A model generated the notes under the pieces. It saw only the letters and a list, made by a program, of their open reading frames with translations. It did not search any database and had not been told where the DNA came from. Source: Lachnospiraceae bacterium (GTDB lineage: Bacteria; Bacillota; Clostridia; Lachnospirales; Lachnospiraceae). Taken from it: a stretch of DNA of 64,000 nt. This document shows positions 46,508 to 63,965 of this stretch, one piece after another. Location of the stretch: contig JAGBHK010000041.1 in assembly GCA_017935565.1 (NCBI GenBank), forward strand, positions 1 through 64,000. The letters run 5' to 3'. The position numbers and the translations under genes are program-made. Position 1 is the first letter of the stretch. Each line of letters begins with the position of its first letter.

Positions 46508-48262
46508 TTAATTTCCACCCATTTTATGCAGCATTTTTTCTTCATACATCAATTTATCTGCTACTTCAAAATAATTATTAATATTGCTACCATAATCATC
46601 AGAAGATAGAACAATACCTATGCTTAATTGTATATTAATTTCTTCTGCGGCTTCATTTATATTTTCCTTAACTAACTTAGCGTTTTCACCTGTAGCATCT
46701 GGGAAAAACATAATAAATTCATCGCCGCCGTATCTGCACGCATAACCGCCCCTTGGGCAATTTGAATCAATAATCCTAGCCACTTTTTTCAACACTTCAT
46801 CTCCATACTCATGGCCGTATGTATCATTAATCTGCTTAAATTTATCTACATCAATAAATGCAATCGCACATACTACACCTTTTTCATAATACTTCTTAAA
46901 TTCTGGTGCAATCAATTCAGCATACGCAACTCTATTATAAATTCCTGTAAGCTGATCCTTATTATAAATATCTTTCAGTTTTTTGTTTACAACCGAAAGT
47001 TTAATATGGTCATATAATGATTCCATATCCTTTACAAGTATATTATGGAGATTATAAAAACTTGGATTATCGTATAAAAACTTTGCATTTTTTATTATTG
47101 TGTATCCAATAGTATATTGTCTAAAATGAATCGGTGTAAATAAATATTCATTTCTTGCTCCACTTTCTTCAATGTATGAATTCATTTCATCTACTGAAGA
47201 AAATTTCAAATTAATTCCTTTATCACAGGCAAATACAACTTTCAAGTTTTCTTTATTATATCCTACAGTTTTAAACTTGTTTCTCTTTTCTCCTTCGATA
47301 AATAGTTTATCAATAATTACAAAAAATCCTTCACAATCAAACTCTGAAAAGAATTCATTCATGCAAGCATACAATCCTACAAATTCATTGCATTTAGCCA
47401 TTGCACTTTCAAGTTCACTAATTCTCTCGTCTTGTGTAGCTTGTTTTACACCATAAATGATTTGCTCTTTCATATACTGTCTATAATCTACAGAACCGTT
47501 ATTCTCACATCCACAACTTTCTGCAAATATGCATTTTGTATCGGTGTAATTATATTTTCTAGGTTGCTTGCCTTCCCATATATCAAATAATACTTCCATG
47601 CAACGACCAGATATTTCACCTCTATTATGATGGTCAACAGTAGTTATCTGTGGCGTAAAATATGCCGCCTTATCTAAATTATCAAACCCCGTTACCTTAA
47701 AGTCTCTAGGTACAATATACCCCATTTTTTCCGCTTGAGTACAAATGCCCGCAGCAATATTATCGCATGCGCATACCACTACATCTGGTATAGATTTACC
47801 TGACTGCACATATTCTTTAAAGAATTTTTCTCCTGATGCAAAATCATAATCCAAATAATACACTGGATTATCTTCACGACTTAATCCCATTTTATCTACA
47901 AACTCAATGTAAGCCCCAACTCTACTTTCATTTTCATAATTGTCTTTTGGGCCTCCTGCAAACACAAAACTTCTGCAACTATGAATATCATACATATGAT
48001 TCAATAAATCTTTTATAGGCTTACTATTATCAATGCCTGCATAATAAAAGCCGTCAATATCAATAGAAATACTAACTGCAGGAACATTACTTTTTCTAAT
48101 CAATCCAGTCACATAATTAAAAACTTTTTCATCATTAATATTATTTCCATCAAAAATAATACCATCATATTGGCTTAAATCCGGAAGATTAAAAATATTG
48201 TATTCTCCCTGATTATGAAGTTCGTCACTACTCCAATTGTAAGCTCGCAAAAAAAATGTCAA
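46508..48262 (-). pseudogene. Truncated GGDEF protein with periplasmic-binding-type sensor domain, cut at the prophage border
   Basis: The 584-residue frame begins only with a TTG at 48260-48262 and no ribosome site. The sensor domain (to about residue 240) starts in mid-fold: RAYNWSSDELHNQGEYNIF matches the region after the first beta strand and helix of LacI/PBP1-like domains in GGDEF proteins, so about 40 N-terminal residues are absent. The C-terminal GGDEF domain is intact: RYGGDEFIMF near 527, AFIDVDKFKQIND before it. An in-frame stop lies 6 codons upstream of the TTG. Prophage DNA begins right there, so the missing end is probably at the other prophage border. It may be expressed weakly or not at all. 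Confidence 0.75.
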
Positions 48263-48393
48263 TTTTTCGCACTTAAAATGTCAATTTCAAAAATTTTGAA
48301 ATTAGAAAATAAATTTTAATCAAAAATAAACACTTTTATCTCTCATTAAAATTCATTTTAACATCTTTTTGATTATTTTTAAAGTTTCATTTA
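48263..48393. other. Probable prophage end and attachment region
   Basis: No gene is seen. Just outside the truncated GGDEF frame lie two imperfect direct repeats, TTGACATTTT-x3-TGCGA type, at about 48246-48281. They could be recombination core or arm sites. The opposite prophage end is outside the window, so the attachment core cannot be confirmed. Confidence 0.4.
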
Positions 48394-48410
48394 AATAAAT
48401 AGCAATTTAA
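48394..48410 (+). repeat. Shufflon recombination site A
   Basis: Sequence AATAAATAGCAATTTAA, plus orientation. Translated with the fibre frame it gives INSNL. It leads into silent cassette A. An upstream TAA in frame prevents translation from here. Confidence 0.85.
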
Positions 48411-48736
48411 CTTCAACTGGATTATGGAAAGAATTAACTCTTCTTAATAGTTGGTCAGGCAGTTTAAAAGCAAGGATAGATACTTTTCACAAACAAGTAT
48501 TTGTATGTGGTTATGTATACGCCACAGCATCTGTTACTAATAACTCCTTTTGTAACTTGTCGGGGAATAGTTTGCCAACACCGATAAATAATTCTATTAG
48601 TATTGGTGTTCCTTGTTACAAATCAGGTGGTGTAGTATGTTATGTATACGCGTATAACAACCAGTATTTGACACTTGCAGGAAATGTAAGTAAACCTGCA
48701 TATGTTAATATTGATTTTTCTTATAGGTATGATTAA
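48398..48736 (+). pseudogene. Silent fibre C-terminal cassette A
   Basis: It reads NSNLTSTGLWKELTLLNSWS and continues open for 112 codons to a TAA at 48734-48736. There is no start codon or ribosome site and TAA lies just upstream, so it is only expressed after recombination joins it to the fibre gene. Its sequence (GNVSKPAYVNIDFSYRY at the end) is unrelated to the other tips but has the beta-rich look of a phage receptor-binding tip. It overlaps cassette C tail-to-tail by two bases at the stop codons. Confidence 0.8.
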
Positions 48737-49047
48737 TAACCTATAGCAAGCCATCTTACAGAATAGTTAACGGAAGCGATTCCGCCACTAGGGTCTATGA
48801 CATTAAAATTTGCCTTGGTCGTTGTAACAGTATTTGTTGCTGTATGAAGCCTCGATGTAGTCGAACCATTGTCCGTGTTTACAAGAGAAACAATTGTTGT
48901 AGGTGGATTGGTGTATGTTACAGGAAATGTAACTGCAGCCTGTCGGTAATATCCGTTTAGATTTGTTGTAGAGTTTCTTCCCCAACAAACTTTTAAACCA
49001 CCAGGAAGAACAAATTTACCATCTTCTTTTTGAGTTAAATTGCTATT
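48733..49047 (-). pseudogene. Silent fibre C-terminal cassette C
   Basis: From NSNL it reads TQKEDGKFVLPGGLKVCWGR and ends SVNYSVRWLAIGY with TAA at 48733-48735, 104 codons. The WLAIGY ending is typical of phage tail-fibre tips. No start codon serves it. Together with cassette A it forms an invertible segment bounded by inverted copies of the site (48394-48410 and 49035-49051). Joining to the fibre gene at 50784-50800 would replace the current tip. Confidence 0.85.
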
Positions 49048-49051
49048 TATT
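49035..49051 (-). repeat. Shufflon recombination site C
   Basis: Same 17 bases as site A, minus orientation. It leads into silent cassette C and faces site A, so recombination between A and C inverts the pair. Confidence 0.85.
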
Positions 49052-49107
49052 TAACCTTTTCTTTAATATTTTAAAAATTGTTAAAAATCTTTTAAACACG
49101 CAAATAA

Positions 49108-49127
49108 AGCTCATACAGTTATGAGCT
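49108..49127 (-). terminator. Terminator of the shufflon recombinase
   Basis: AGCTCATA pairs with TATGAGCT around ACTG on the minus strand, then TTATTT. It lies about 28 bases after the recombinase stop. Confidence 0.6.
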
Positions 49128-49154
49128 TCGAACGAGATATTCAATTACCCATAG

Positions 49155-50120
49155 TCAGGCTATATATTTTTTATGCGACATTTGGATATTATTAACATCA
49201 ACATTACAATATATCATTGTTGTTTCTATTTTACTGTGTCCTAATAATGCTTGGACTTCCTGTATTGGCATACCTTTATTTATCCCCCTGGTTGCAACAG
49301 TTCTCCTGAATTTATGAGGATATGCTTTTATATTAATCTTTAAACCTAAATCTTTAATAATTTTTTCAACGCTATTTTTTGTCATTCGTTTATATAATCC
49401 ATCAGTTTTATTATAGTTGATGAATAATGCTTCATTATTATCTTTTCTGGTGCCAAGATACTTATTTACATAATATAACGCTTTATCCGAGAAATACACA
49501 TGTCTTTCCTTGTTTCCTTTTCCACGTATAACTGCAGTTCCTTGCTGTATATCTGATATATTTATATTACAAAGTTCAGATACTCTCACTCCTGTAGTAT
49601 TCAACACCTCAATAATCGCTTTATCTCTAATATTCATTGCTGTTTCTCTCATTTTTTCAACTTCCAATTCACCAAAAGAAGACTTTACAACCTTTAATTC
49701 TCTGACAGGCTTTGTTTTTCTTACTGGATTACATTTAATTATATCCTCAAATTCCAGATAATTGAAAAAGGCTGATATAAAACGCCTCATATTATTAAGA
49801 GTTACATTACTTATTCCATGATATTCCCTATATTCCGCCAAATATCTTTCTATATCCCTTTTATCAATATCTTCCACTCGTTTGTTAATGTGCGCCAAAA
49901 ACTTCTCATTTTCACGCTTATACTGTGCTATCGTTTGTTCTGAACAATTCTCATAAACTTTGCTAGAAATAAAATCATCAAGCAGCTTATTATTGCTTAT
50001 TTTATTCTCTGAATATTGCATTTCAAATTCTTTCAACAAAGTTTCTTCTAAAAGTTTCATTTGTTCACTGTTTAACGAATCTTTCATAGTTTTTAAAACA
50101 TTCTTTAATATTATGTTCAT
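49155..50120 (-). CDS. Tyrosine recombinase of the fibre shufflon (Rci/Xer-like)
   Basis: The ATG at 50118-50120 has GGAGGTGG about 8 bases upstream, giving 321 residues. A SAM-like N-terminal core-binding domain (about 65-160) precedes the catalytic domain. The catalytic residues fit: Arg in NTTGVRVSELCN, Lys in RGKGNKERHVYF, HKFRR as HxxR, LLGHSKIETT for the second His, and Tyr in MIYCNVD. It lies between two pairs of invertible fibre cassettes, so it probably recombines the four 16-17 bp sites. It could also be the phage integrase; its position inside the shufflon favours the former. The start codon lies in a 16-base inverted repeat. Confidence 0.9.
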   Translation of the reverse strand: MNIILKNVLKTMKDSLNSEQMKLLEETLLKEFEMQYSENKISNNKLLDDFISSKVYENCSEQTIAQYKRENEKFLAHINKRVEDIDKRDIERYLAEYREYHGISNVTLNNMRRFISAFFNYLEFEDIIKCNPVRKTKPVRELKVVKSSFGELEVEKMRETAMNIRDKAIIEVLNTTGVRVSELCNINISDIQQGTAVIRGKGNKERHVYFSDKALYYVNKYLGTRKDNNEALFINYNKTDGLYKRMTKNSVEKIIKDLGLKINIKAYPHKFRRTVATRGINKGMPIQEVQALLGHSKIETTMIYCNVDVNNIQMSHKKYIA

Positions 50121-50162
50121 ATAAGCCACCTCCATAAAAAAGAATAGCTTATATGAACATAA
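50111..50162. promoter_or_regulatory. Inverted repeat around the recombinase start
   Basis: Arms 50111-50126 and 50147-50162 are perfect 16-base inverted repeats (core TGTTCATATAAGC). In recombinase mRNA the start ATG would lie in the stem and GGAGG in the loop. The right arm also runs into site B, so the start codon of cassette B mirrors that of the recombinase. Confidence 0.65.
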
Positions 50163-50512
50163 ATAGCAATTTAACTAACTTTAGCATTAACGCTTATTCA
50201 TTAGTTATAAGTGCAAATTTAACTACAAATAATACGACATACACTCTATATGATGAAAGAAAATTTTCAGATTATGATTTTATTACAATAACAATTGGTG
50301 CTTCAACTTCTGATATACGTGCAGAAATGACTTTACCTAGAAGTGTTTTTACATCAGGTAAACAACTATTTTTGGATTGTCATTCTAATAATGGTAATAC
50401 CTGGCATCAAGTTGCAGTTAAATATGCAAGTGATAAAACTATAACGGCGTTTACTTCAACGGGTGCGACTGTTAAATATCTCAATATTTATGGATACAAA
50501 AAAATGTATTAG
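50153..50512 (+). pseudogene. Silent fibre C-terminal cassette B
   Basis: It reads INSNLTNFSINAYSLVISAN and ends KYLNIYGYKKMY with TAG at 50510-50512. It is 119 codons from an ATG that belongs to the inverted repeat at the recombinase start and has no good ribosome site, so independent translation is unlikely. Inversion between sites B and D would exchange it for the present fibre tip. Its stop overlaps the expressed tip's stop tail-to-tail by two bases. The product is beta-rich with many Thr, Ser and Asn, like other fibre tips. Confidence 0.8.
50159..50174 (+). repeat. Shufflon recombination site B
   Basis: ATAAATAGCAATTTAA, plus orientation, 16 of the 17 bases of the other sites. It leads into silent cassette B and faces site D at 50784-50800. 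Confidence 0.85.
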
Positions 50513-53500
50513 GTACCGACCACAATTACGTTGACATTCCCGCTCAATGTAGAACCATAATAATTTTGATAGTTAATAATAATTGTACTCTTGTTCGTAT
50601 CATTCCATCCAACTGGATGAACTACTACCCAGTCGCTATTAGCCGAATGAGTTATTATAAAGAAAGAAGCTGTTGAATAACTTTTTCCAAGTGAAACAGT
50701 TGTTTTGGCGGCTCTACCTAGGGATGCAGTAGATGAAAAATTCATTGCAACGGTGTGAACGCCTAGTACCTTTAGTGAAGTTTTTAAATTGCTATTTATT
50801 GCTTCTATTCCCTCAGTTAACGAATCCAACTCACTTAACAACATCCTACTTCTATAGCCTGAAGATAATGTTTCTTCTTGCAAATTAACAATTTCTATAT
50901 CGCCATTTGTAAGGATAGATAATCCATGATTTGGTGAAAACAGACCACTTCTCTTTTCTTCTGAAGTACTTTGTCCACCATACCAACTTGTGGTTTTTTC
51001 GACACCACCAACATATACACTGTCATCTTCTTCAAATGGTTTTGAGCCAACCTTCAAACCTTCAATTTTATATAATACAGACTGTACATTTCCACTTGAT
51101 TCAGAAGTTGACTCACCCAGAACCATATTTACATCTTCATCTATGCTTGATATGAACTTTGACCCAGTAAATGAACCTTCTTTTAAAGTAACATTTCCCT
51201 TTTCATCCATTTGAAAATTAGTAGATTGAATTATCAACCTATTTGATAATATCTTTATAACATCTGCAGCCGCATTAATTTCAGAAATCAATGTCTCTTT
51301 ATCAACCTTAAGAGATAATTCTGCCTGAATACTATTTGCAACCTCCCACGAAGCATCACATACTGCCGTGGTATATGTTTTTGTACCATCAGAATATGTT
51401 ATTACGCTTCTAGTCCAAACATATTTATCTTTTGACCAAGTAGGAGCTGCAGAACTCCATGAACCTCCTGCCAATGCTGTTTTACTTGTAGATACATAAT
51501 ATTGAGGAACAATACTACTAACAGTTAAACCGTCAGCACCCGCTGCTCCTGTTTCACCCTTGGCTCCTGTTTCGCCATGTGTTCCTATTATTCTTACTGA
51601 TGTATTACTTGTGGTTCCATCCGTATATGTAATCTTTTCATAGTTCCAAAGGTACTTCTTGGTTGTAGTCGTTGTCTGTAGACTTGTTGTCCATCCACTT
51701 GTTGAAGTTGTCACTCCACTTGCTGAGGATGAAGCAAGGTAATAATCCACCATTGATACTATTCCTTTTCCATCACTTCCATTACTTCCATCTTTTCCTG
51801 CCGCCCCAGTTGCTCCTGTTGCTCCTGTTTCACCCTTGGCTCCTGTTTCGCCATGTGTTCCTATTATTCTTACCGATGTATTACTTGTGGTTCCATCCGT
51901 ATATGTAATCTTTTCATAGTTCCAAAGGTATTTCTTGGTCGTAGTCGTTGTCTGAAGACTTGTTGTCCATCCATTTGTCGCAGTTGTTACTCCGCTTGCT
52001 GAGGATGAAGCGAGGTAATAATCCACTATTGATGTTATTCCTTTTCCATCACTTCCATTACTTCCGTCTTCTCCATCTTTGCCATCTTTTCCATTCGCAC
52101 CATCCTCGCCATCTTTTCCATTTCGACCGGGAAGACAAATTGGAACACTTTCCACGGTAGTTTCATCACCGTATGTGGTTATTGTTTTCTGCCACATATA
52201 CATTCCGTCAATCCATGTCGGAGCTTCTACATTCCAGCCATCATCTGGTGCTGTTTCGCAACTATCCGATAATGCATACACAACCTGTATTCCTACTACA
52301 CCAGTATCACCAAGTGTAGCTACCTTTTCGATAAGTACTTTTAATTCGTTGTCTGTCTGTATTATCTCATTGTTAAGATTTTCCTCAAGATTTGTTATAA
52401 GTAATGAAGTAGCTTCCACTGTTCGTTTCAATCTATTCATTTTATTCTTAAGTTTAATTACATCCTCTGCAATACCAAAAGATTCACCTGTAGTCTTTGT
52501 TCCTGAAGACTTGATTACATCTTTTAAACCTTGAGTTCCTGATAAGGTACGTTGAAGTATCAATCCAACAAAACTTTCACCACTGGTAAGCTTATATGAT
52601 ACCTGTTGTCCACATTTTATGTACGGCAATCCAATCTGTTCAGATGTATATGGAATGTATGTTATATCTTTAATAACTTCATATATATTAGCGGCCAATA
52701 CTTCCAACTTTTCTGTACTGCTGCCATATATAAGAAAATTATCCTGTACAATATATGCATTGTCACCCTCGCCTGCAGAACCACCAATATCACCATCTTC
52801 TGTTCTAACATTTACCCTGGTAAATTTATTAACGGTATAATTCTCTGTTTTGAGTGTTTTATAATGCTTAACTTCCAAGTATTCATTCACTACATTTGTA
52901 TCAAGTGTTATAAATTCTATCTTTCCATCAGCTGCTGCCCTGAAAAAACCACCATTTAATTCAGCTATACTCTTAAGCACTGTGATACCCTTTATATCTT
53001 CAGGAGAAATCGTTTTTTCTAATTCAACCTCTCCATTAACAAGCGTTACTTCCGCCAATTCTACACCGATATAATCACACAAGCTTTGCAACATTGCATT
53101 CATTGTAGTAGGAAACTCTAGCATTTCATACCATTCACTAACATTTGTATTGAATAATATAATGTTATCGTATGCAACTATATCTCTATACTTCTTATTC
53201 TCTGTAAGCAAACAACTATCAACATTGTAAACACCTATATCCACACTATTTTCATTGATTATTTGTTTTAAATTAATCTTTTTATCACTAATATCGCCTA
53301 TCTCTGCTACCATCTTAAGTTTCAGCATCGATGCATTACATTCTCCAAACCTAAGCTGCGTATTACTACATAATTTTTCTGTAAGGCTGAATGAGCCAAA
53401 CACTATGTTCTTATTATCATAATCAGTACCATCAATTCCTATTACATAGTTTTTTGATATTGTACTGTCATTTGTCTTCTTATATAATTCCTTTATTTCA

Positions 53501-53514
53501 TCTGATACATTCAT
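50509..53514 (-). CDS. Phage tail-tip/fibre protein with switchable C-terminus
   Basis: The 1001 residues start with a tail-hub or endopeptidase-like domain (about 1-340), then a helix, two collagen-like stretches (G-x-y repeats near 460-490 and 560-582) and two near-identical domains 92 residues apart (each with DYYLASSSASGVTT and YLWNYEKITYTDG). A third Gly-x-y stretch follows near 646-660. The constant part ends near residue 905 at INSNL; the last 90 residues (KTSLKVLGVH to VIVVGT) are the expressed cassette D. The role is host binding at the tail tip. It follows the distal-tail gene by 9 bases and is the last gene of the tail operon. Confidence 0.85.
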   Translation of the reverse strand: MNVSDEIKELYKKTNDSTISKNYVIGIDGTDYDNKNIVFGSFSLTEKLCSNTQLRFGECNASMLKLKMVAEIGDISDKKINLKQIINENSVDIGVYNVDSCLLTENKKYRDIVAYDNIILFNTNVSEWYEMLEFPTTMNAMLQSLCDYIGVELAEVTLVNGEVELEKTISPEDIKGITVLKSIAELNGGFFRAAADGKIEFITLDTNVVNEYLEVKHYKTLKTENYTVNKFTRVNVRTEDGDIGGSAGEGDNAYIVQDNFLIYGSSTEKLEVLAANIYEVIKDITYIPYTSEQIGLPYIKCGQQVSYKLTSGESFVGLILQRTLSGTQGLKDVIKSSGTKTTGESFGIAEDVIKLKNKMNRLKRTVEATSLLITNLEENLNNEIIQTDNELKVLIEKVATLGDTGVVGIQVVYALSDSCETAPDDGWNVEAPTWIDGMYMWQKTITTYGDETTVESVPICLPGRNGKDGEDGANGKDGKDGEDGSNGSDGKGITSIVDYYLASSSASGVTTATNGWTTSLQTTTTTKKYLWNYEKITYTDGTTSNTSVRIIGTHGETGAKGETGATGATGAAGKDGSNGSDGKGIVSMVDYYLASSSASGVTTSTSGWTTSLQTTTTTKKYLWNYEKITYTDGTTSNTSVRIIGTHGETGAKGETGAAGADGLTVSSIVPQYYVSTSKTALAGGSWSSAAPTWSKDKYVWTRSVITYSDGTKTYTTAVCDASWEVANSIQAELSLKVDKETLISEINAAADVIKILSNRLIIQSTNFQMDEKGNVTLKEGSFTGSKFISSIDEDVNMVLGESTSESSGNVQSVLYKIEGLKVGSKPFEEDDSVYVGGVEKTTSWYGGQSTSEEKRSGLFSPNHGLSILTNGDIEIVNLQEETLSSGYRSRMLLSELDSLTEGIEAINSNLKTSLKVLGVHTVAMNFSSTASLGRAAKTTVSLGKSYSTASFFIITHSANSDWVVVHPVGWNDTNKSTIIINYQNYYGSTLSGNVNVIVVGT
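50784..50800 (-). repeat. Shufflon recombination site D (expressed junction)
   Basis: The 17-base site in minus orientation lies inside the fibre gene and encodes INSNL at the junction of constant and variable parts. Confidence 0.85.
51562..52060. repeat. 276-base near-identical tandem repeat in the fibre gene
   Basis: Two copies, offset by 276 bases (92 codons), contain the same Thr-rich domain and adjoining Gly-x-y stretch. The reading frame is kept, so copy number could change without breaking the gene. Confidence 0.75.
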
Positions 53515-53523
53515 AATAGCCTC

Positions 53524-53925
53524 CTAATACTCTATAATCTCTATAGATATAGCGTTGTAAATTATATCTGATTCCGTTCCTGCTTCTACCACTCTGTTAA
53601 TTGGGAATTGCGGGTCAACCATATAAAACTTACCTGTTTCATATGAATTTGTCTCATCATTCCAATATGTAAGTTCTGTATCATCTCTGTTAAAAAACGA
53701 CTGCATCTCTATCTTGTCTGCTAAATGTAATCCTTGTGGTGTTTGAAATGTACATTTAGTTCTCTTATGTGGCAGGATATTTCTCTGCAATTCACCATTT
53801 CCATCCGTGTATGAATCCTGGTCTGTTCTTTGATCAGGAGCTGAGCTCCAAGTTGAAAAAGAAATAAACCTGTTAGGAAATACTTTTTCTCCTACTTTTA
53901 TCATATATCCTTCAAATCCATTCAT
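53524..53925 (-). CDS. Distal tail protein-like
   Basis: The ATG at 53923-53925 has AAAGGAG 8-9 bases upstream, giving 133 residues. The sequence (FISFSTWSSAPDQRTDQDSY, RTKCTFQTPQGLHLADKI, YNAISIEIIEY) fits a small beta-barrel tail protein of the type found between tape measure and tail-tip genes (DUF6711-like). It is probably the distal tail or baseplate ring protein. It lies 9 bases before the fibre gene. Confidence 0.7.
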   Translation of the reverse strand: MNGFEGYMIKVGEKVFPNRFISFSTWSSAPDQRTDQDSYTDGNGELQRNILPHKRTKCTFQTPQGLHLADKIEMQSFFNRDDTELTYWNDETNSYETGKFYMVDPQFPINRVVEAGTESDIIYNAISIEIIEY

Positions 53926-53982
53926 TTTATCCGCTCCTTTTACCAAAATAACCAAGACGGAGTTTCCGCCTTGGTTACTAAT

Positions 53983-56532
53983 CTAATATGCATATCCTGC
54001 TGTCATCTTTTGGTTCTGCAGTCTTCGAAGTTCAACCTTCTCATAAACCACATCCCCATCCATATCTACTTTTACATAGATATTTCCATCACCGATTTTA
54101 TCTGCAAGGTAATAAATAGCCTCACTTAATCTGTCATTGTTTGAATAACTTGCAAACTTCTTAAAGAGAATATCCATCCAGCCTGTATTATTTTCAAGTG
54201 GCAACACAGCTTCCTTTCCTGCCTCACCGATGATAGCAGGTGTCGCACTATTAACAATACCACCTTTAGCCAAATATTCAATCTTTGAGAAACTTACCGG
54301 GTCAATGTCAAATCCAAATGTTTTTCCACCGATTTTAGGTACCCATTCCGGAATATCAAAACTTAACTTATTTATGCCATCCACGACAAAGTTTAACGCG
54401 CTCTCAACACCTGTAATCATAGCATTTATCATACCAATTATTAAGTTTATTGGTATCTTCAAAACACTTACCATTCCATTCCATATTCCTGAGAGTGCTG
54501 TTTTCACTCCTGTCCAAGCTGTTTTCCAGTCACCTGTGAATACGCCTTTTATGAATGTCACTATACCAGTACAAGTCGTTATTATTCCGTTAATTGCATC
54601 AATCATATTTCCAATGATAGGTTCCACCACATTAAATATGCCTTGGAATACACTTTTAAATATCGGACCAAGAGTGCTTGATAACCAACCAACAATAGGA
54701 GCTATAAACTTGTTATAAATCGCTAGTGCTGCATCCACAAACTCACCAACAAAATTAGCGAGATTGCTCAATAACGGTTTCATATGTTCTGACCACACCT
54801 TGTCAATAAGTTTCATAAAACTATCCCAAGTAGGCTTTATCCATGTTTCCCACGCATTAAGAATCACATCTGCAGTTGTTCTGATTGCTTCTCTAAAGCC
54901 CTCAAATATAGTTGCGCCATATTTTTGCCAGGTATCATTCATTATATCAAGAACATCAGACCACACTGTTGTTACCTGATTTAATATTGGAACAATACCT
55001 TCCGTCCATAATACAGAAACTATACCAATTACTTCATCATTCCATACACCTATAGTCGCTGTCATTTCGGTAAGAACCTGTGTAAACATAGGTAAACCTA
55101 CTACGACAAACTTCTCAAATAATGGTAAACCTGCCTGAGTCCATATATCAGAAAAGACGGTAGTATATAGTGATAACATATCTGCCAGATAATTAGCCGA
55201 GACATCAACTACAGTCTTCAAATACTTGGTTACATCAACATTAAACCACGCCATGAGTGGCGATTTTAGTTTCGTCAATGTTTTCCATGTCTTGTCTGCC
55301 ACAGAACTAAGTTTTTTTATACTGTCCTTTCCGGCATTATATACCTTTAGAAATGAACCCGAAAAATTATTTTTAATCCAGTTTGTAAACTTATTTAATG
55401 ACGATTTAATTTTAGTTACTTCCTCGTTAACAACACTTGTAGTGTTTGTTATGCCTGATGTATCTATTGACAACGCCATTGATGATGAAGTGCCCGAATC
55501 TTCACCCTTACTACCCGATGATATGTTATTAAGCTTGTCTATTCCTGACAATGCTCTCTTAACACTTTCAGCCGACGTTGCTGTACTTTCCATATTACTT
55601 GACAATACATCAGAGGATGCTGCAACATCATTTATGGCATCATTACCTCCGCCTGCATCACCAAACAATGAAGTACTAAAATCTCTAAACATATCTGCAA
55701 CAGTCTGTAACTTCGGTATAATTTCATTTATCAATCTCAATACTGGTGTAAGAACATTTATAAGACCCTGACCTACCGAAGCCTTAACAGAATTAAAGCT
55801 TTCCGATAATATCTTTGTCTGGTTTGCCCAAGAATTAGATGTCCTTGCAAAATCTCCTTGTGCATCAGATGTTACTTCCATCAGATAATTATATCTTAAT
55901 AATACCTGTTCTGCCTGCTCCATGTCATTATACGCTTTGGTTATACCTTGGCTTAAAGCATAGGCTTCAAGATTTGCTACCGACATGTTTATACCAAGTT
56001 GTTTAAGTGGCTCCGTCTCACCACTTATACCAGCTCGGAGTTTTGCAAAAGCATCATCTCCGGACAGATTGTAAAATGATGCCATATCTCCTGCCAAGCC
56101 AGTAAGGTTCTTTGACATTACCAACACTTCATCCGATGTGATTCCCATGCTCTTTAGCATAGCACCCATAGTTGAAGTATACTGTTTTGCTGATAATTCA
56201 GATAAACCAAACTGGCTTATTGCACTCTTGGCAAATTCATTTACATTTCCTGACATTGATTCAAAGGTAACATCTACCACGTTCTGCACTTCCTGCAGAT
56301 CGGAACCAAGTTCTATACAACTTTTTGAAAAGGATGCAATAGCTGCTACTGAAAATGCCACAGCTATTCCTTTACCGATTTTGCTTACTAATGATTTAAT
56401 TTTTCCTGTCTGCTTTTCTGTAGTTCCGGCGGTCTGCTTGACGGCTGTATTCACTTTTGACAGCTCATCTCTTATTCCCTTGGTATTTGCATCGATGATA
56501 ACTTGCAACTTTTCAAGGGTAAGCCCTTCCAT
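53983..56532 (-). CDS. Phage tail tape measure protein
   Basis: The 849-residue protein sets tail length. The N-terminal part (VIIDANTKGIRDELSKVNTA, then GSDLQEVQNVVDVTF and ISQFGLSELSAKQYTSTMGAML) is the conserved TP901-type tape measure region. The centre has Ser/Thr linker and repeated Trp-containing helices, and a hydrophobic C-terminal segment (IWNGMVSVLKIPINLIIGMINAMI) that would enter the membrane. AKGGIVNSATPAIIGEAGKEAVLPL near the end is a common closing motif. The gene is intact. Confidence 0.93.
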   Translation of the reverse strand: MEGLTLEKLQVIIDANTKGIRDELSKVNTAVKQTAGTTEKQTGKIKSLVSKIGKGIAVAFSVAAIASFSKSCIELGSDLQEVQNVVDVTFESMSGNVNEFAKSAISQFGLSELSAKQYTSTMGAMLKSMGITSDEVLVMSKNLTGLAGDMASFYNLSGDDAFAKLRAGISGETEPLKQLGINMSVANLEAYALSQGITKAYNDMEQAEQVLLRYNYLMEVTSDAQGDFARTSNSWANQTKILSESFNSVKASVGQGLINVLTPVLRLINEIIPKLQTVADMFRDFSTSLFGDAGGGNDAINDVAASSDVLSSNMESTATSAESVKRALSGIDKLNNISSGSKGEDSGTSSSMALSIDTSGITNTTSVVNEEVTKIKSSLNKFTNWIKNNFSGSFLKVYNAGKDSIKKLSSVADKTWKTLTKLKSPLMAWFNVDVTKYLKTVVDVSANYLADMLSLYTTVFSDIWTQAGLPLFEKFVVVGLPMFTQVLTEMTATIGVWNDEVIGIVSVLWTEGIVPILNQVTTVWSDVLDIMNDTWQKYGATIFEGFREAIRTTADVILNAWETWIKPTWDSFMKLIDKVWSEHMKPLLSNLANFVGEFVDAALAIYNKFIAPIVGWLSSTLGPIFKSVFQGIFNVVEPIIGNMIDAINGIITTCTGIVTFIKGVFTGDWKTAWTGVKTALSGIWNGMVSVLKIPINLIIGMINAMITGVESALNFVVDGINKLSFDIPEWVPKIGGKTFGFDIDPVSFSKIEYLAKGGIVNSATPAIIGEAGKEAVLPLENNTGWMDILFKKFASYSNNDRLSEAIYYLADKIGDGNIYVKVDMDGDVVYEKVELRRLQNQKMTAGYAY

Positions 56533-56536
56533 TTAC

Positions 56537-56953
56537 TCATTCACCACCTTTAAATCTCTGATTGTTCCAGAACATAAATTCTTCCATTCTTGCCTTATTA
56601 AGTTCCAGTTCAGCCTCTTGAACCTTTTTCTTCTCATCTTCATCCATTTCTTTTGTGAGATCAGCAAACCATTGTGGAAAAAAGTTCTGTAACGGAGTCA
56701 AGAACTTTTTCTTATCCTCCGCCTCTCCCGGCAGCAGCATACTTATATATTCCATAATCTGCTGTGCAAGAACTTTATTAAGAATGGCATCATATTTCTT
56801 GCCAATGTCCATATTTTCAGCTTCTTTTTTTTCTTTACGTCTTGAACTATCAAGCATATCTATAATTTCATCAATACTTGAATCCCAAAATAAAGAAGGA
56901 GTATACCCGGCATCCAAAAACACCGGATATACTTCCCATAATCGATCCGTCAC
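56537..56953 (-). CDS. Tail assembly chaperone extension (GT-type), reached by -1 frameshift
   Basis: On its own this frame starts with a GTG at 56951-56953 and gives 138 residues, largely helical and acidic (YDAILNKVLAQQIMEYISML). The frame is open upstream to 57040, where it joins the preceding gene through a T-TTT-TTT slippery site in the -1 frame. This is the layout of lambda gpG and gpGT: the fused product of about 319 residues recruits tail tube to the tape measure. Independent start is weaker, because no clear ribosome site precedes the GTG. Confidence 0.75.
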   Translation of the reverse strand: MTDRLWEVYPVFLDAGYTPSLFWDSSIDEIIDMLDSSRRKEKKEAENMDIGKKYDAILNKVLAQQIMEYISMLLPGEAEDKKKFLTPLQNFFPQWFADLTKEMDEDEKKKVQEAELELNKARMEEFMFWNNQRFKGGE

Positions 56954-56997
56954 AGTCAGTTCCTCTTTTAGTTCTGACTTTTTATTTTGCTTAACAA

Positions 56998-57495
56998 CTA
57001 ATTGCTGGTGTCCGCCATGCTCTCCAGCATCTCCTGAGTAAAAAAACCTGAAGCTTTGTACACCTCAATGAAAACATCTCTCCAGAATGTCATCTGGTCA
57101 TTACCTTCATCTATATATTTATCATACAATGCCTGTATATGTTTAAGCTGCACACCCTTATGCCAAGGTGTCATTGCCATATGTACAACCTCCAGCATGA
57201 TACTTAATGAAGGCATACTATCAAGGAATGACATAAGATTTCTCTTATATTTATTCTCTAACTGCTGAATTCCTGCCGTTTTAAGCTTAAGGCGATATCT
57301 GTTACCACAAACCTCCCAATATGCAAACATTGGTCTTTTTACCACTGGCTTAACCGGATTTTCAAACTTCTCTACAAAAGTTTCTTCCACAGCTACTTCC
57401 TCAACCATATTTTCTGTTACTATTATTGTACTTTCCTCTTCCTGAATTTCCACTCCTTCAGGCATTTCAAAGTTTTCTGTTACATTTGTATCCAT
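56998..57495 (-). CDS. Tail assembly chaperone (gpG-type, DUF6096-like)
   Basis: The 165-residue protein has an acidic N-terminal region, then FAYWEVCGNRYRLKLKTAGIQQLENKYKRNL and a helical part (LEVVHMAMTPWHKGVQLKHIQALYDKYI), typical of siphophage tail assembly chaperones between tail tube and tape measure. At codons 150-152 it reads GGT TTT TTT and ends 14 codons later. A ribosome slipping back one base there continues into the gene at 56537. The free form and the fused form are both expected in tail assembly. Confidence 0.8.
   Translation of the reverse strand: MDTNVTENFEMPEGVEIQEEESTIIVTENMVEEVAVEETFVEKFENPVKPVVKRPMFAYWEVCGNRYRLKLKTAGIQQLENKYKRNLMSFLDSMPSLSIMLEVVHMAMTPWHKGVQLKHIQALYDKYIDEGNDQMTFWRDVFIEVYKASGFFTQEMLESMADTSN
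57040..57046 (-). other. Programmed -1 frameshift site
   Basis: The heptamer T-TTT-TTT is in the zero frame of the upstream gene (GGT TTT TTT ACT). Slipping by -1 gives TAC TCA GGA and an open frame YSGDAGEHGGHQQLVVKQ into the chaperone extension. No downstream hairpin was proved. Confidence 0.7.
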
Positions 57496-57514
57496 CTTTT
57501 ATTTCCTCCTGATT

Positions 57515-57937
57515 TTATTCTGTTGCTGCTGCAGGGTCTGCTGGTACCATTTCACCCTGAATTGCAAGTTTAAGTGTAAACTTAATACCACCATTAACTC
57601 CACCACCGCCAAGTTTAACATTGCACATTGCCGGAAATGTGAACGAAAGTCCGTCTGGATATTCCTGTTTAAATTCAAGAATCTCCTTATCTGCCTGTGC
57701 CTGTCTAAATACTCTGTATGGTGATGTTGATGACTTATTTTCGTAGATGAACTTGTATTCCAGTTCGCCATAATCACCAATACCATACTCATATTCATGG
57801 TTCTTTGAAGCAAGATGAGTCATCTGTACCTTTTCATCTTCACTACCAATATCTGGTATTTCCTCAAGCTTGGTTGCGATTGTCCAATCTTCAGCTCCCA
57901 ATGTTCTATATGAGAGCGTTGTACCATTAGCTAACAT
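57515..57937 (-). CDS. Major tail tube protein
   Basis: The 140-residue protein (MLANGTTLSYRTLGAEDWT, then KVQMTHLASKNHEYEYGIGD, ending in CNVKLGGGGVNGGIKFTLKL) has the size and beta-rich layout of a siphophage tail tube protein. It lies between the DUF2829 gene and the chaperone genes. A separate reading on the same strand at 57499 is a shadow frame. Confidence 0.82.
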   Translation of the reverse strand: MLANGTTLSYRTLGAEDWTIATKLEEIPDIGSEDEKVQMTHLASKNHEYEYGIGDYGELEYKFIYENKSSTSPYRVFRQAQADKEILEFKQEYPDGLSFTFPAMCNVKLGGGGVNGGIKFTLKLAIQGEMVPADPAAATE

Positions 57938-57955
57938 ATCTAGTTTCCTCCTTCC

Positions 57956-58459
57956 TTAATCCACTATCATCCAATCTTCAGCTAACATATCTGTCTGTGA
58001 TGCCAACCAACCCACAACAATGTTATTATCTGCTGTTTTCATTGCCACAACATTTGGCATTGAAAACTTTTCTTCAGACTGCATGAAGTTTGTCATATCT
58101 GCATCTGTTTCAAACTCTGTAACATTAACCAGGAATAAAAACATACCTTTTCCATTCCATCCTGTTCTTGCAACCTTGAGACCTCTCTTAAGATACTTAA
58201 TTGCATCTCCAAATCCCATTGTTGCAACACCACCTAATATTGGTGTGTTTTCTTCTTCAGCAATGAGCCAGTCCTCGGACAGAAGATTGTTAATCGTATA
58301 TTCAACCCTTTCTGTCTCTCTAATATCCAGTGTTTTACCTTCATGAGTATGTATAAGTACCGTTTTCTTATCCTCATCCCAACTCCAGTAACCTCTCCAT
58401 GCTGGTAACTTAACTTTTTTTCCTGCCTTCATTGCTGCCAACGCTTCAATAAACTTCAT
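57956..58459 (-). CDS. Tandem DUF2829 (Tad2-like) protein in the tail operon
   Basis: The 167 residues hold two copies of a DUF2829 domain. The first (about 1-70) has FIEALAAMKAGKKVKLPAW, a Trp-rich strand and LLSEDWLIAEE; the second (about 80-167) repeats FGDAIKYLKRGLKVARTGW and MLAEDWMIVD. DUF2829 is the Thoeris anti-defence 2 fold, which captures signalling nucleotides such as gcADPR variants. The gene lies between tail tube and tail completion genes and is spaced like a structural gene (12 and 18 bases to its neighbours). It may therefore be a virion component, an anti-defence sponge or both. Ligand binding is inferred. Confidence 0.8.
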   Translation of the reverse strand: MKFIEALAAMKAGKKVKLPAWRGYWSWDEDKKTVLIHTHEGKTLDIRETERVEYTINNLLSEDWLIAEEENTPILGGVATMGFGDAIKYLKRGLKVARTGWNGKGMFLFLVNVTEFETDADMTNFMQSEEKFSMPNVVAMKTADNNIVVGWLASQTDMLAEDWMIVD

Positions 58460-58471
58460 TTATCCATCCTC

Positions 58472-58828
58472 CTAACTGTGTGTCACTCTGTCATTCTCCG
58501 GATTGATTATGCCTTCATAACGCATCAATTTATGCTTTTCAGGGCTTTTATCCTCAACGTCAGTGCATTGGATTCTCTTAAGACCCAACTTAGCAATTCT
58601 TTTATCCAGTTCGCAGGCAAGCAACGATGTCGAACCATCATTCCATATATCAAAGCGATATCTAACATAAGATTCATATTCCTTGTTATCAACCCATGAA
58701 TGGACTTTGTTCTCTTCTTCGGTATATTGAATCGCTGGTAATGTACCCTCCTCATCCGGGTAACTGTCACCCACATTTTCCACAAGATCTTTTATGGCTT
58801 CATATACCTCTTCTTTCTTATTTTGCAT
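58472..58828 (-). CDS. Tail terminator/completion protein-like
   Basis: The 118-residue protein reads LKDLVENVGDSYPDEEGTLP-like at the start, WVDNKEYESYVRYRFDIWND in the centre, and ELDKRIAKLGLKRIQCTDVED near the end. The size and its place after the HK97 gp10-like gene match tail terminator proteins. It overlaps that gene by 11 bases. Family assignment is by position more than by motif. Confidence 0.68.
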   Translation of the reverse strand: MQNKKEEVYEAIKDLVENVGDSYPDEEGTLPAIQYTEEENKVHSWVDNKEYESYVRYRFDIWNDGSTSLLACELDKRIAKLGLKRIQCTDVEDKSPEKHKLMRYEGIINPENDRVTHS

Positions 58829-59258
58829 TACCTGTCACCTTCCTTATTTCTTTTCTTATATCTACATTTATACGCTCAAGAACTTGCTTTTCATTATTCT
58901 TAAGCGCAGGATACAAGAATGGTTGCGCCGGTTGCCCAGCCCATTCTTCATTGTAAGTTATGTCCTGATCGCCGTCATAGGTTGCAGCTCCACGACGTCC
59001 GGTACCAAGTTCAACATAAGGTCCATATTCCTTATTTGTATAGACTTTTCCAATAACATGAGAATTCGAAACTTCAACTTTTGTTGATATACTGTTTCTT
59101 AATTCTCCCTTATCCACAGGGCATAACAACTTAGCCTCTGCCTGAACCGTCTTACAGCCACGATGAACCGCTCGTTCCATCGCTCCCGACTTGAATACCT
59201 CTTCTATTACATCCAATTTCTTGAATAAACTATCAAGTCCTTTTATTGTTGATGACAT
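58818..59258 (-). CDS. HK97 gp10-like tail component
   Basis: The 146 residues match the HK97 gp10 family: a helical start (GLDSLFKKLDVIEEVFKSG), CPVDKGELRNSIST, YGPYVELGTGRRG and PAQPFLYPALKNNEK, all conserved in that family of head-tail joining proteins. It overlaps the upstream gene by one base. It is followed by the terminator-like gene. Confidence 0.9.
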   Translation of the reverse strand: MSSTIKGLDSLFKKLDVIEEVFKSGAMERAVHRGCKTVQAEAKLLCPVDKGELRNSISTKVEVSNSHVIGKVYTNKEYGPYVELGTGRRGAATYDGDQDITYNEEWAGQPAQPFLYPALKNNEKQVLERINVDIRKEIRKVTGNAK

Positions 59259-59581
59259 TAGATTTCCTCCAGTTCATAAAACTTAATATCATATGGATAT
59301 GTAGCAACAACCCTATAATCAGGCTTATCCGTAGATTTATAACAGATTCCATCACCTTTTTTTATTTCAATATCACCATCATATAACATATTTAAAATTC
59401 GAGATGATTTAGCTCCATACATGGCAATCAATCTCGCATCTATCTTTTGCCATATCTGCGCTTTTATGGGTATAGCCTTTTCATATGCTGCCGCTCTATG
59501 ACCTTCTCCATCACGAGTGCTATTAAGTTTTTTGCAGTATCCATATTCCTTAAGTCGCTTCTGTGTCATTCTTCTGCTCAT
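59258..59581 (-). CDS. Head-tail stopper-like protein
   Basis: The ATG at 59579-59581 (MSRRMT) has GGTGG about 8 bases upstream, giving 107 residues. Its beta-rich C-terminal part (EIKKGDGICYKSTDKPDYRVVA) fits a head closure or stopper protein. It overlaps the connector gene by 32 bases and its stop overlaps the gp10-like start by one base. Assignment rests on position and size. Confidence 0.65.
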   Translation of the reverse strand: MSRRMTQKRLKEYGYCKKLNSTRDGEGHRAAAYEKAIPIKAQIWQKIDARLIAMYGAKSSRILNMLYDGDIEIKKGDGICYKSTDKPDYRVVATYPYDIKFYELEEI

Positions 59582-59876
59582 AAATATGTCCACCAACCTT
59601 ACCTAATCTTTTACCTTTTATTGCACTTAATATTTCTGTTGGCATATCCGCAAATGCACTTGATATACCTCCCTCACTTCTTGATGTCTCGCCTTCCGTA
59701 CCAAGACGATTGTATGCTATTACAGCCATCTTCAATTGAGTGGTTTCAAGTGATTGTGGAAACTCTTTCCTATTCGTTAATTCAAGGATAGTATCCTTTG
59801 ATAACTCCAACAGGATGGAGAGCAACTCTTCGTCGCTCTCCCCTGTAAGTTTTTTTAACTTTTCAAGTAGTGTCAT
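59550..59876 (-). CDS. Head-tail connector protein (gp6-like)
   Basis: The 108-residue all-helical protein (LLEKLKKLTGESDEELLSIL, TILELTNRKEFPQSLETTQL, VIAYNRLGTEGETSRSEGGI) matches phage gp6-like connectors that bind under the portal. It follows the SAP-like gene by 8 bases. The motif NRxG-x-EG-x-x-SRSEGG is highly typical. Confidence 0.88.
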   Translation of the reverse strand: MTLLEKLKKLTGESDEELLSILLELSKDTILELTNRKEFPQSLETTQLKMAVIAYNRLGTEGETSRSEGGISSAFADMPTEILSAIKGKRLGKVGGHIYEQKNDTEAT

Positions 59877-59884
59877 ATAATCAC

Positions 59885-60307
59885 CTATTTCTTATCTTCA
59901 TCCGAACCTTCTGTAGCATTTTCCGGAACAGATACTTTTTCAGCAACGAGTCTTTCGATTAAATCATCTTTTGAACCGCTTGCTTTTAAGCCCATCTCCT
60001 TTGCTAATTTCTGAAGTTCCTGATATGAATAATCAGCAAATTGTCCAGCATCAAGGTGTCCTTCTAATGTATCATTCGAATTACCACCCTCTTCATCTGC
60101 CGTTTCATCCTGATTATCATTTTTTTCATCCTTCTCATCTTCAGACGTATTGTCCTTTGAACCGGATGAAGTTTCTTCCTTAACTGCTGCCACTTTTGAT
60201 ACAACTTCTTTGTATCCCATTTTCTTAAGTTTTGCCAATGCTTCTTCTGTATCTGCATATCTCTCAACACTTCCTTTTCTAAGTGTTACTCTCTCTTTTA
60301 ACTTCAT
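59885..60307 (-). CDS. Phage protein with HeH/SAP-like C-terminal domain
   Basis: The 140 residues have an N-terminal basic part with a short motif (ERYADTEEALAKLKKMGYKE), a long Asp/Glu/Asn/Ser-rich linker (about 45-85) and a C-terminal HeH/SAP helix-extended-helix (YSYQELQKLAKEMGLKASGS, then DDLIERLVAEK) that may bind DNA. It lies just after the major capsid gene, where such proteins are frequent. Its exact role is unknown; DNA packaging or capsid decoration is possible. Confidence 0.78.
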   Translation of the reverse strand: MKLKERVTLRKGSVERYADTEEALAKLKKMGYKEVVSKVAAVKEETSSGSKDNTSEDEKDEKNDNQDETADEEGGNSNDTLEGHLDAGQFADYSYQELQKLAKEMGLKASGSKDDLIERLVAEKVSVPENATEGSDEDKK

Positions 60308-60320
60308 GTTACCTTACCTC

Positions 60321-61256
60321 CTATGCTGGCTTCGCTGAACTGAATGTAATATGTGTCTGCTTGATTCTCTTTTCAGTCATCCATAAGTCATGATATCTTC
60401 TGTAATCTGCATGCCATGCTGCAGCCTTCTGATATGTCTTAGGATCAAAAATTCTAAACTTATCAAGTTTATTAACTGCCATTGGACCAACCATAGGTGT
60501 TGCGATAAGTTCAATATCCAACGCGCTCTCTGCCTTTTTCCAACCGCCAACCTTCTGGTCTTCAGATGTACCATCAAGTGTTGTGATAGCTGATACCATT
60601 CTGTTAGAAACAGTTTCAAAAATTGGATTACCGTCAATTGCTGGAACCTTAATTGTAATTCCACCTTTAACTACTTCCATAAACTGAAGTTTTGCTGCAA
60701 GTTCAAGCTTCAATTCTAACACAAAATTAGATGAAGCCTGAAGAGCAACAATACCGTCATAGCCCTGGTCTCTAACTGCCTTAATTGCCTCATATGCTTT
60801 TCTAAGTGCTGATGTTCCTGCTGTTCCTGGCACATAACCATACACAGTCATACCTGCCTCACTAGCACCAATTACGTTTGTTGCAATAGTGGAAATACGG
60901 TATGCATCAATTTCTGGTATTACCTTTTCTCTTTGGAATTCTCCCATTACTGAACTGATTTCCAGTGCATAATTGCTCTCATCAACATCCGCTTCATCGA
61001 TAGTAAATCCTCTACCTCTGTCCTGTGTCATAGTTCTTGTCTCGTATTCAAGAGTAACATCTCCCTCTACGAATCCATTAGCACGATCGTAATCAGCCAT
61101 ACCATCCATATCAACTTTAGGTATCTTAATTTCACGACCACCACTGTACTTAACCTTTCCGGCATTCTTATCCATCCAACCTGTACTTAATCCAACTGTT
61201 GAAGCTGTGTCTAAGTTCTTCTGAATGACTGCTGCTGTTTCAATATAATTTGCCAT
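60321..61256 (-). CDS. Major capsid protein
   Basis: The 311-residue protein starts MANYIETAAVIQKNLDTAST and contains REIKIPKVDMDGMADYDRANGF, TRTMTQDRGRGFTIDEADVD and EKVIPEIDAYRISTI, which are conserved in the capsid family of Lachnospiraceae and other Firmicute siphophages with an HK97 fold. It follows the scaffold gene by 18 bases, the usual order. No protease gene is seen next to it. Confidence 0.92.
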   Translation of the reverse strand: MANYIETAAVIQKNLDTASTVGLSTGWMDKNAGKVKYSGGREIKIPKVDMDGMADYDRANGFVEGDVTLEYETRTMTQDRGRGFTIDEADVDESNYALEISSVMGEFQREKVIPEIDAYRISTIATNVIGASEAGMTVYGYVPGTAGTSALRKAYEAIKAVRDQGYDGIVALQASSNFVLELKLELAAKLQFMEVVKGGITIKVPAIDGNPIFETVSNRMVSAITTLDGTSEDQKVGGWKKAESALDIELIATPMVGPMAVNKLDKFRIFDPKTYQKAAAWHADYRRYHDLWMTEKRIKQTHITFSSAKPA

Positions 61257-61274
61257 TGTATATTCCTCCTATTC

Positions 61275-61874
61275 TTAATCTCCGTTGATTGCAGCCATTA
61301 TGGCATCTGAATCAACTGTATCTGTTTCCTCCGGTGCTTTCTTCATAGCAACACCACCTACAAGTTTACTGTCAACGCCTGCCTGAACCGCCTTGTTAAA
61401 CGCTTCAACAACTGTTTTAACAGATGTTTCCATAGTTTCAGCACTTGAATAATCAAGAAGATTGGCAAGTTCCTTTGGAACATTTGCTTCAGTAAGTTTT
61501 TCTGTTGCTGAAACTCTTAATTCTTTTTCAAGAATAGCCTTTTCCCTTGCATCCAAATCTTCTTTACGTTTCTGCTCTTTCTCTTCAGGAGACATAGATG
61601 CAATTCGTTCCTGTTCTGCCTTTTCATCAAGAGCCTTTTTCACCTGTTCATCCACCTTTTTCTGATATGCTTCCGAAAATGCCTTATCCTTCAACAATTC
61701 TTCAAGATTAGGTGTTTCCTTTGTATCAGCTTCCTTATCTGATGAATCATTTTCTGCTGCCTTTGTATCTTCAGGTTCCTTTGGAGAGTCATTTGCTGCT
61801 GTTGGATCAGCTGCAACATTCTCTGATGCAAAAAGCTGAAGATTCATTTTTAATGGTTCTCTTTGTGTCTTCAC
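61275..61874 (-). CDS. Scaffold protein (DUF4355 family)
   Basis: The start is a GTG at 61872-61874, with GGAGG 8 bases upstream, giving 199 residues. The N-terminus (LKMNLQLFAS) is the conserved scaffold leader. An acidic linker and a helical coiled coil (about 60-130, KKVDEQVKKALDEKAEQERI) follow, then the conserved ELRVSATEKLTEANVPKELA and LLDYSSAETMETSV. It guides capsid assembly and leaves the head or is packed inside it. Confidence 0.9.
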   Translation of the reverse strand: MKTQREPLKMNLQLFASENVAADPTAANDSPKEPEDTKAAENDSSDKEADTKETPNLEELLKDKAFSEAYQKKVDEQVKKALDEKAEQERIASMSPEEKEQKRKEDLDAREKAILEKELRVSATEKLTEANVPKELANLLDYSSAETMETSVKTVVEAFNKAVQAGVDSKLVGGVAMKKAPEETDTVDSDAIMAAINGD

Positions 61875-61905
61875 TTTAGTTTCCTCCTTGTTAATTTTTT
61901 GTATT

Positions 61906-61933
61906 AAAAAAACACCCTCGCGGGCGTTTTTTA
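61906..61933. terminator. Terminator between structural gene blocks
   Basis: AAAACGCCC pairs with GGGTGTTTT around GCGA, with T-runs on both sides. It lies between the small gene at 61975 and the scaffold gene and may set different levels of the two blocks. Confidence 0.75.
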
Positions 61934-61974
61934 ACCTTGTTTAAACATAATTTTAAGCAAAATAAAAGCACCTT

Positions 61975-62217
61975 TTAAGATGCTTTATTATCTAATATTA
62001 ACTTTTTTGCCTCTTCTTCGGTTATTTCTTCAATCCTCATGAGCATATCTGTATTTCCAATACCTTCGTTCGGGTCATATCCTATAAATCTGTCATTAAC
62101 AATATTATCATTATCCACTTCCCATTTTCCGTTTCTGTATATATATGATACATAATCTTCCATCTTGGCTACTAGTTTCAAATCATTCAACCAAAAATAT
62201 GTTAATTCCTTAACCAT
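61975..62217 (-). CDS. Small phage protein of unknown function
   Basis: The 80-residue acidic protein reads VKELTYFWLNDLKLVAKMED, FIGYDPNEGIGNTDML and ITEEEAKKLILDN. It overlaps the minor head gene by 8 bases. It has no motif I recognise. Small genes at this place between head genes often encode decoration or connector-associated proteins. Confidence 0.6.
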   Translation of the reverse strand: MVKELTYFWLNDLKLVAKMEDYVSYIYRNGKWEVDNDNIVNDRFIGYDPNEGIGNTDMLMRIEEITEEEAKKLILDNKAS

Positions 62218-63952: not shown

Positions 63953-63965
63953 TACTCATCACCTC

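Follow-up and report, generated by a model that had tools for sequence, protein, structure and literature searches.

The DNA considered here is a window of 64,000 nt from a contig of a Lachnospiraceae bacterium (JAGBHK010000041.1, positions 1 to 64,000), to which all unprefixed coordinates refer. Near one end of a Mu-like prophage in this window, a tail fibre gene, three silent alternative fibre tips and a tyrosine recombinase gene are arranged around four short repeated sites, and it is highly probable, judging from the sequence, that this locus is a shufflon of four cassettes through which the prophage varies the receptor-binding tip of its tail fibre. This reading is based on the anatomy of the locus, four tips that are open in frame, a complete recombinase, the Mu-like context, a layout conserved among related loci, and relatives found in rearranged states. 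An initial annotation of the window had already proposed a fibre-tip shufflon with its own tyrosine recombinase, and both the anatomy and the relatives bear this out.

The four sites lie where they had been annotated and follow one another in the orientations + - + -: site A at 48395 to 48410 (plus strand), site B at 49035 to 49050 (minus), site C at 50159 to 50174 (plus), and site D at 50784 to 50799 (minus), the last within the fibre gene. They share a 16-bp core, ATAAATAGCAATTTAA. Identity covers 16 bp across all four copies, 17 bp across three of them, and 22 bp between A and B; of the 16 to 17 bp first ascribed to the site, the 16-bp core holds for all copies and the proposed 17-mer is off by one base at C. 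Read in frame, every core is ATA AAT AGC AAT TTA and encodes INSNL, and, as the annotation had it, each opens into a different tip: the same codon phase remains open for 113 (A), 105 (B), 117 (C) and 96 (D) codons, and the two remaining phases close within 0 to 1 codons (the background chance of 95 or more open codons per position is 0.124). The number, exactness, phase and clustering of the sites are far above what shuffled sequence gives, with four copies of the 16-mer within 3 kb against a maximum of two in 100 dinucleotide shuffles (best count two in 54 and one in 46). No fifth copy with up to one mismatch was found in the whole genome (45 contigs, 2.48 Mb, 81% complete), in which the reversed control pattern gave 0 matches. 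A looser scan of the window, with up to three mismatches, returned six matches against 2.33 expected, and six were reached in 4 of 100 shuffles; the looseness of the scan thus matters, and the evidence for the sites is their exactness and clustering. Chance repeats were ruled out by the dinucleotide shuffles together with the reading frame.

The fibre gene (50509 to 53514, minus strand) encodes 1001 amino acids with collagen-like repeats, its PHROG matches are tail fibre and host specificity proteins, and it ends in the expressed tip D (50509 to 50799, minus; INSNLKTS..., 96 codons). The silent tips are A (48395 to 48736, plus; INSNLTST...), B (48733 to 49050, minus; INSNLTQK...WLAIGY) and C (50159 to 50512, plus; INSNLTNF...), and the four are placed tail to tail in the pairs A/B and C/D, with a 4-nt overlap of the tails in each pair. 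Four short sites in both orientations are therefore in frame with one expressed and three silent C-termini. Tips A and B have a TAA stop directly before the site and are consequently untranslatable in the present arrangement. The annotated scheme of one expressed tip and three without a usable start is shown for these two only, an ATG at 50153 being in frame with tip C and two codons upstream of its site; the WLAIGY ending, first attributed to tip C, belongs to tip B. Matches to Gp53-like_C (5.9e-10) and H_lectin (6.9e-6) span nearly the whole of tip B, which is also 34% identical to a tip from a related shufflon, and a comparison of this tip with solved structures gave nothing useful (best E 0.29). 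The cassettes are identified as phage-fibre C-termini by the PHROG matches of the fibre, by their position and, for tip B, by these two families. The fibre gene also carries, beside its collagen-like repeats, a 263-nt tandem duplication (51536 to 51798 and 51812 to 52074; 93% identical, spacing 276).

The tyrosine recombinase gene (49155 to 50120, minus strand) is intact and lies between the two pairs of tips, so the annotation of a complete and centrally placed recombinase stands, and the site-specific enzyme is encoded alongside its cassettes. The protein has 321 amino acids from an ATG that follows GGAGG, or 326 if counted from the first ATG at 50135. It matches Phage_integrase (1.2e-38) and a SAM-like N-terminal domain, and it exceeds the NCBIfam cut-off for recomb_XerA_Arch (226.5 against 220 bits). 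The R, K, H-x-x-R, H and Y positions, which we take to be the catalytic residues, are invariant across 15 aligned relatives and present in the window recombinase.

In the proposed mechanism, the phage-encoded recombinase would exchange DNA inside the 16-bp sites. Given that the sites alternate, the segments A-B, B-C, C-D and A-D should be invertible, while A and C are co-oriented, as are B and D, so that A-C and B-D exchanges would delete the intervening DNA instead of inverting it. The route first suggested, by inversions B-D and A-D, alone or after A-C, is thus kept for A-D only, B-D and A-C being pairs of direct repeats. An inversion ending at site D would join a new tip in frame to the constant part of the fibre: C-D would install tip C and A-D tip A, each in one step, and tip B would need two. 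A simulation of inversions gave 16 orders, four per expressed tip, with every tip within at most two inversions, in agreement with the earlier proposal that any of the four can reach the fibre. The population derived from one lysogen would carry a mix of fibres, and the variable tips most likely let sister virus particles recognise different host surfaces, with the four tips presumably binding different receptors.

Related loci were found through the recombinase gene. Of 397 genomes of the family, 49 had a match at 1e-85 in a profile search, HsdS types (discussed below) included. The viral_contigs collection, scanned with three fibre-type recombinases, yielded 19, 11 and 7 loci, which overlap, and with two further ones it yielded 14 and 9. 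An examination of 39 loci flagged 28, the window included, in which four sites of alternating orientation flank the recombinase on its two sides; two flags are doubtful (L268 and L272), and among the 11 loci left unflagged, 5 extend for less than 200 bp on one side. The pair-recombinase-pair layout thus appears to be kept in about 25 related loci, several of which are closely related to each other, so that their number is not a count of independent events. In 27 of 31 loci, a long upstream frame runs on into one of the cassette positions, and the other 4 have no such frame of at least 90 amino acids. BLAST groups the 28 fibre-stem entries, among which one locus appears twice, into 10 clusters, and 102 tips, extracted by a one-mismatch rule that misses some, fall into 69. 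Another related four-site locus, L273 (650 to 3400), has a quite different, longer site of the TCACAAAATTCTAAGATTGATAG type, and its four tips resemble one another.

The core site of the window recurs in Lachnospiraceae bacterium COE1 (L183, KE159628.1) and in the genomes G291 and G399. The COE1 recombinase is 48% identical to that of the window, and two runs of N (L183, 2282 to 3891 and 5062 to 6072) lie between its paired sites; of the four edges of these runs, three coincide exactly with a site and the fourth is 16 nt past it. This hints at assembly gaps caused by mixed orientations, although the collection also masks stretches with N. An exact scan of viral_contigs for the 16-mer gave 53 stretches, of which 52 have a single match and the remaining one has two that are co-oriented; these matches were taken to be mostly due to chance.

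The initial annotation had also suggested looking at related prophages, and their comparison revealed different expressed tips, a relocated and inverted pair, and an inverted core. Loci L119 and L121 share 99.07% identity across 2,359 bp on the fibre side and 96.6% across 1,198 bp at the recombinase, yet the tips that they express are of different families; that of the L121 tip is present in L119 as a silent tip on the opposite strand (91.5% nucleotide identity). Between these two loci, the sequence to the left of AATAGCAA follows the position and the sequence to its right follows the tip, which locates the exchange within the site. In L139, the right-hand pair corresponds to the left-hand pair of L142 in inverted orientation (87% over 732 bp), and the recombinase core lies in opposite orientations relative to the flanks in L148 and L149.

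Several observations weigh against a shufflon of fibre tips in the window phage. The rearranged states appear between related phages, and the window phage comes from a single assembly. The cassettes of L119 and L121 are 80 to 92% identical, against 99% for the flanks, and this greater divergence means that replacement by ordinary recombination also happens; the change of strand between these loci still needs an inversion, and the cassette identities do not tell inversions of the A-B type from outer ones. A scan of viral_contigs with the window recombinase as single query found no relative, and the recombinase group includes loci with two or no such sites (L130, L252 and L270). For tips A, C and D, neither Pfam nor NCBIfam gave a match at the cut-offs applied, PHROG gave chance-level rows only, and the phage collection gave nothing at E 0.01, so that a receptor-binding role for them rests on their position.

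Of the alternatives to be weighed, one is that the locus is a frozen relic, in which the enzyme or the sites are dead and only tip D is ever used. The strain is indeed known from that one assembly, without a direct sign of inversion, but the recombinase and all four tips are open, the cores are identical over the lengths given above, and the catalytic residues are kept, which makes a relic improbable. The fibre-tip shufflon is very likely functional, and its recombinase is presumably active in the window phage.

A second alternative gives the locus the main role of flipping the recombinase relative to late transcription, as an on/off switch, with the choice of tip secondary. The orientation of the recombinase does vary among relatives, agreeing with the fibre in 23 of 27 loci and opposing it in 4, and its ribosome-binding site in the window lies inside a hairpin. 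This hairpin is a perfect 16-bp inverted repeat (50111 to 50162, minus strand; arms at 50111 to 50126 and 50147 to 50162, loop of 20 nt); the loop contains the ribosome-binding site, the stem contains the start codon, and the RNA fold has a z of -5.84. Nevertheless, A-B and C-D inversions would leave the recombinase untouched, and the tips of related loci are diverse, as their clustering indicates, so a switch of this kind is distinctly unlikely as the main role.

Structured leaders recur in the recombinase family. Recombinase leaders of relatives reach z of -2 or below in 7 of 15 folded. In a wider comparison, for which a usable start was available in 24 of 32 fibre-type and 27 of 34 HsdS-type loci, the median z is -3.08 for HsdS-type leaders (-2 or below in 20 of 27), -1.24 for fibre-type leaders (9 of 24) and -0.15 for control gene leaders (11 of 107). 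Fibre-type leaders exceed controls only in the pairing of the ribosome-binding site (0.68 against 0.40; p 0.0026, with rows that are not independent). The idea that the hairpin is a fibre-specific trait was rejected, given that HsdS-type leaders are more structured than either fibre-type or control leaders. The hairpin at the start site may limit translation of the recombinase from read-through transcripts. Scans for promoters and terminators were near random, with 18 promoter-like sites against 14.8 +/- 4.8 expected and one terminator-like site against 1.0 expected.

A third possibility is that the silent tips are a store for homologous recombination or gene conversion, and not for site-specific inversion. 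The divergence of cassettes relative to flanks among relatives does speak for cassette replacement, but the tips of the window have in common no more than the short site, which is too little for ordinary homologous exchange, and a dedicated recombinase is present in all loci, though these were found via the recombinase gene. We consider such a store very unlikely as the explanation of the window locus.

The last alternative concerns the prophage as a whole, which occupies 48238 to 64000 in the window and extends to C15:79317 (31,080 bp in total). Its ends, TGTAAGCTC... at 48238 and TGTGAATAC... at C15:79317, are TGT ends and are flanked on both sides by CCAAT, a 5-bp target duplication. Beyond the window, the contig encodes a MuA-like DDE transposase (PF02914, PF09299, PF00665 and PF09039), an AAA ATPase that is MuB-like (its Phage-MuB_C match is below cut-off), a terminase and an SPP1-like portal. 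A MuA-type transposase, a TG-ended genome and a 5-bp duplication mark it as a Mu-like transposable phage, a nature that the initial description of a siphophage fibre gene had missed. The insertion has split a host gene of the Peripla_BP_3-GGDEF type, the C-terminal part of which lies at 46508 to about 48237-48262 (minus strand) and the N-terminal part in L090 at 17079 to 17300. PF09299 was found in 2 of 19 records of related shufflons (the genome studied here and the L148 record), so a Mu-like backbone does not seem to be general, though the records may be fragments. The shufflon forms the final 2.6 kb at one end of the prophage; in Mu, the invertible G segment is also near one end of the transposable genome. 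With a DDE transposase and a target duplication, the tyrosine recombinase is not the integrase and is available for another task. Its membership in the integrase family and its place near a prophage end might suggest an integrase with attachment-like or accidental repeats, a reading that was rejected and has next to no probability in view of the MuA-like transposase, the MuB-like ATPase, the TGT ends, the CCAAT duplication, and four sites that are internal to the phage, share the frame of the fibre tips and are placed in the same way about the recombinase in related phages.

Regarding kinship, the recombinase has a match at 1e-20 in 97 of 200 genomes of the same bacterial family. Among 19 regions around strong matches, 13 have adjoining HsdM and HsdS genes, 3 have fibre cassettes (L096, L106 and L107) and 3 have neither; all four HsdS proteins checked against Pfam match Methylase_S. 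In the HsdS loci found, the cassettes are paired around the recombinase, and S-S-recombinase-S is likewise the gene order on an annotated Ligilactobacillus plasmid. The site of the HsdS loci, ATAAA(C/T)(G/A)ATAATTTA, encodes I-N-[DN]-N-L and looks strikingly like the window site. No HsdM or HsdS match was found in 12 kb around the window locus, which accordingly does not belong with the systems acting on hsdS beside hsdM. In a tree of 74 rows, 24 fibre-type and 34 HsdS-type recombinases, labelled from gene context, fall on opposite sides of one branch (99/94), with one of the 16 unlabelled rows within the fibre side; a second tree of 35 rows gives the same split (99/100). The window recombinase pairs with L123 in both (99/97 and 93/94). 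The closest recombinase relatives outside phage-fibre loci thus appear to shuffle HsdS genes. XerC/D-like rows lie outside both groups in the first tree and among fibre-type rows in the second, and with so unstable a rooting, capture of the enzyme by phages from HsdS systems is not claimed.

Other members of this kinship were met along the way. Relatives of the recombinase with neither HsdS genes nor fibre cassettes nearby are found in L093, L094, L098, L157, L174 and L185. Three faecal contigs deposited as bacteriophage (L111, L112 and L113) carry HsdS genes with a recombinase of the same family, and L112 and L113 have HsdM matches too. In the Terrisporobacter phage TPELB_ph1 (L110), a relative (CDS0023, 35%) stands beside tail genes, a second gene is annotated as integrase, and no shufflon-like repeats were found at this locus.

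Some known systems resemble the window locus in different ways. The Rin shufflon of Bifidobacterium prophages was presented by its authors as the first reported phage shufflon with a tyrosine recombinase; as described there, it has short repeats before alternative C-termini of a receptor-binding protein and undergoes multiple inversions, while its recombinase lies at one flank of the variable genes and its sites are 11 bp long, TTCCCTAACCC (PMC6109161). Compared by description only, the window locus differs in having the recombinase between two tail-to-tail pairs, an AT-rich site and a Mu-like phage as host, and no Rin-type sites were found in 9 genomes of one related genus. In the case of the HsdS systems of the PsrA/CreX kind, the recombinases belong to the same wider family by the tree (PsrA itself being outside its rows), and the target is the specificity subunit of a type I restriction system, whereas in the window it is a phage fibre tip. 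PsrA is reported to perform inversion in vitro between 15-bp repeats (IR1), short inverted sites within coding frames, which makes a 16-bp site plausible (PMC7096588). The inversion systems Gin, Cin and Min of Mu, P1 and p15B also vary phage tail fibres, but they use serine recombinases (PMC6109161), and prophage tail-fibre inversions have been described in 4 species of Proteobacteria (PMC5903667).

The Rci shufflon of IncI plasmids, to which the locus had been likened, is a fitting analogue, since there too a tyrosine recombinase shuffles the C-termini of an adhesin-like tip from several cassettes. Close kinship did not follow: the integrase in the Rci position of ColIb-P9 (IncI1), the single such integrase compared, gave no significant BLASTP match (E 0.19) and has a very long branch in the second tree, the kin of the window enzyme being those that shuffle HsdS. 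The ColIb-P9 integrase gene also lies beside the PilV shufflon, and the window recombinase lies inside its own. A search of the full-text literature, with most subscription papers outside its reach, found no description of this recombinase/fibre group. Milman et al. (2023) reportedly surveyed gene-altering inversions and may already list some of these loci. A phage shufflon with a tyrosine recombinase is already known in Rin; what is new here is the HsdS-related recombinase, the layout with the recombinase in the middle and the Mu-like host phage.

On balance, and with a little more confidence than doubt, we favour a wider reading, in which one lineage of tyrosine recombinases and one portable design, a pair-recombinase-pair arrangement with a site that doubles as a coding motif ([I/L]-N-x-[N/K]), would serve both arms of a conflict. 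HsdS would be reshuffled in bacteria and fibre tips in phages of at least one bacterial family, the design being attached to at least 10 unrelated fibre stems; in the Mu-like phage of the window, the shufflon would stand where Mu has its Gin segment, and the leader hairpin, recurrent in the family, may shield the enzyme from read-through transcription. The signature of four alternating in-frame sites around a recombinase can be searched for, and its use has turned up many more examples within one bacterial family as well as in IMG/VR. For the Mu-like phage described here, the locus predicts a host-range switch with 16 states. In the family at large, the same enzymes and nearly the same DNA architecture would diversify both a bacterial defence, through restriction specificity, and a phage weapon, through host recognition.

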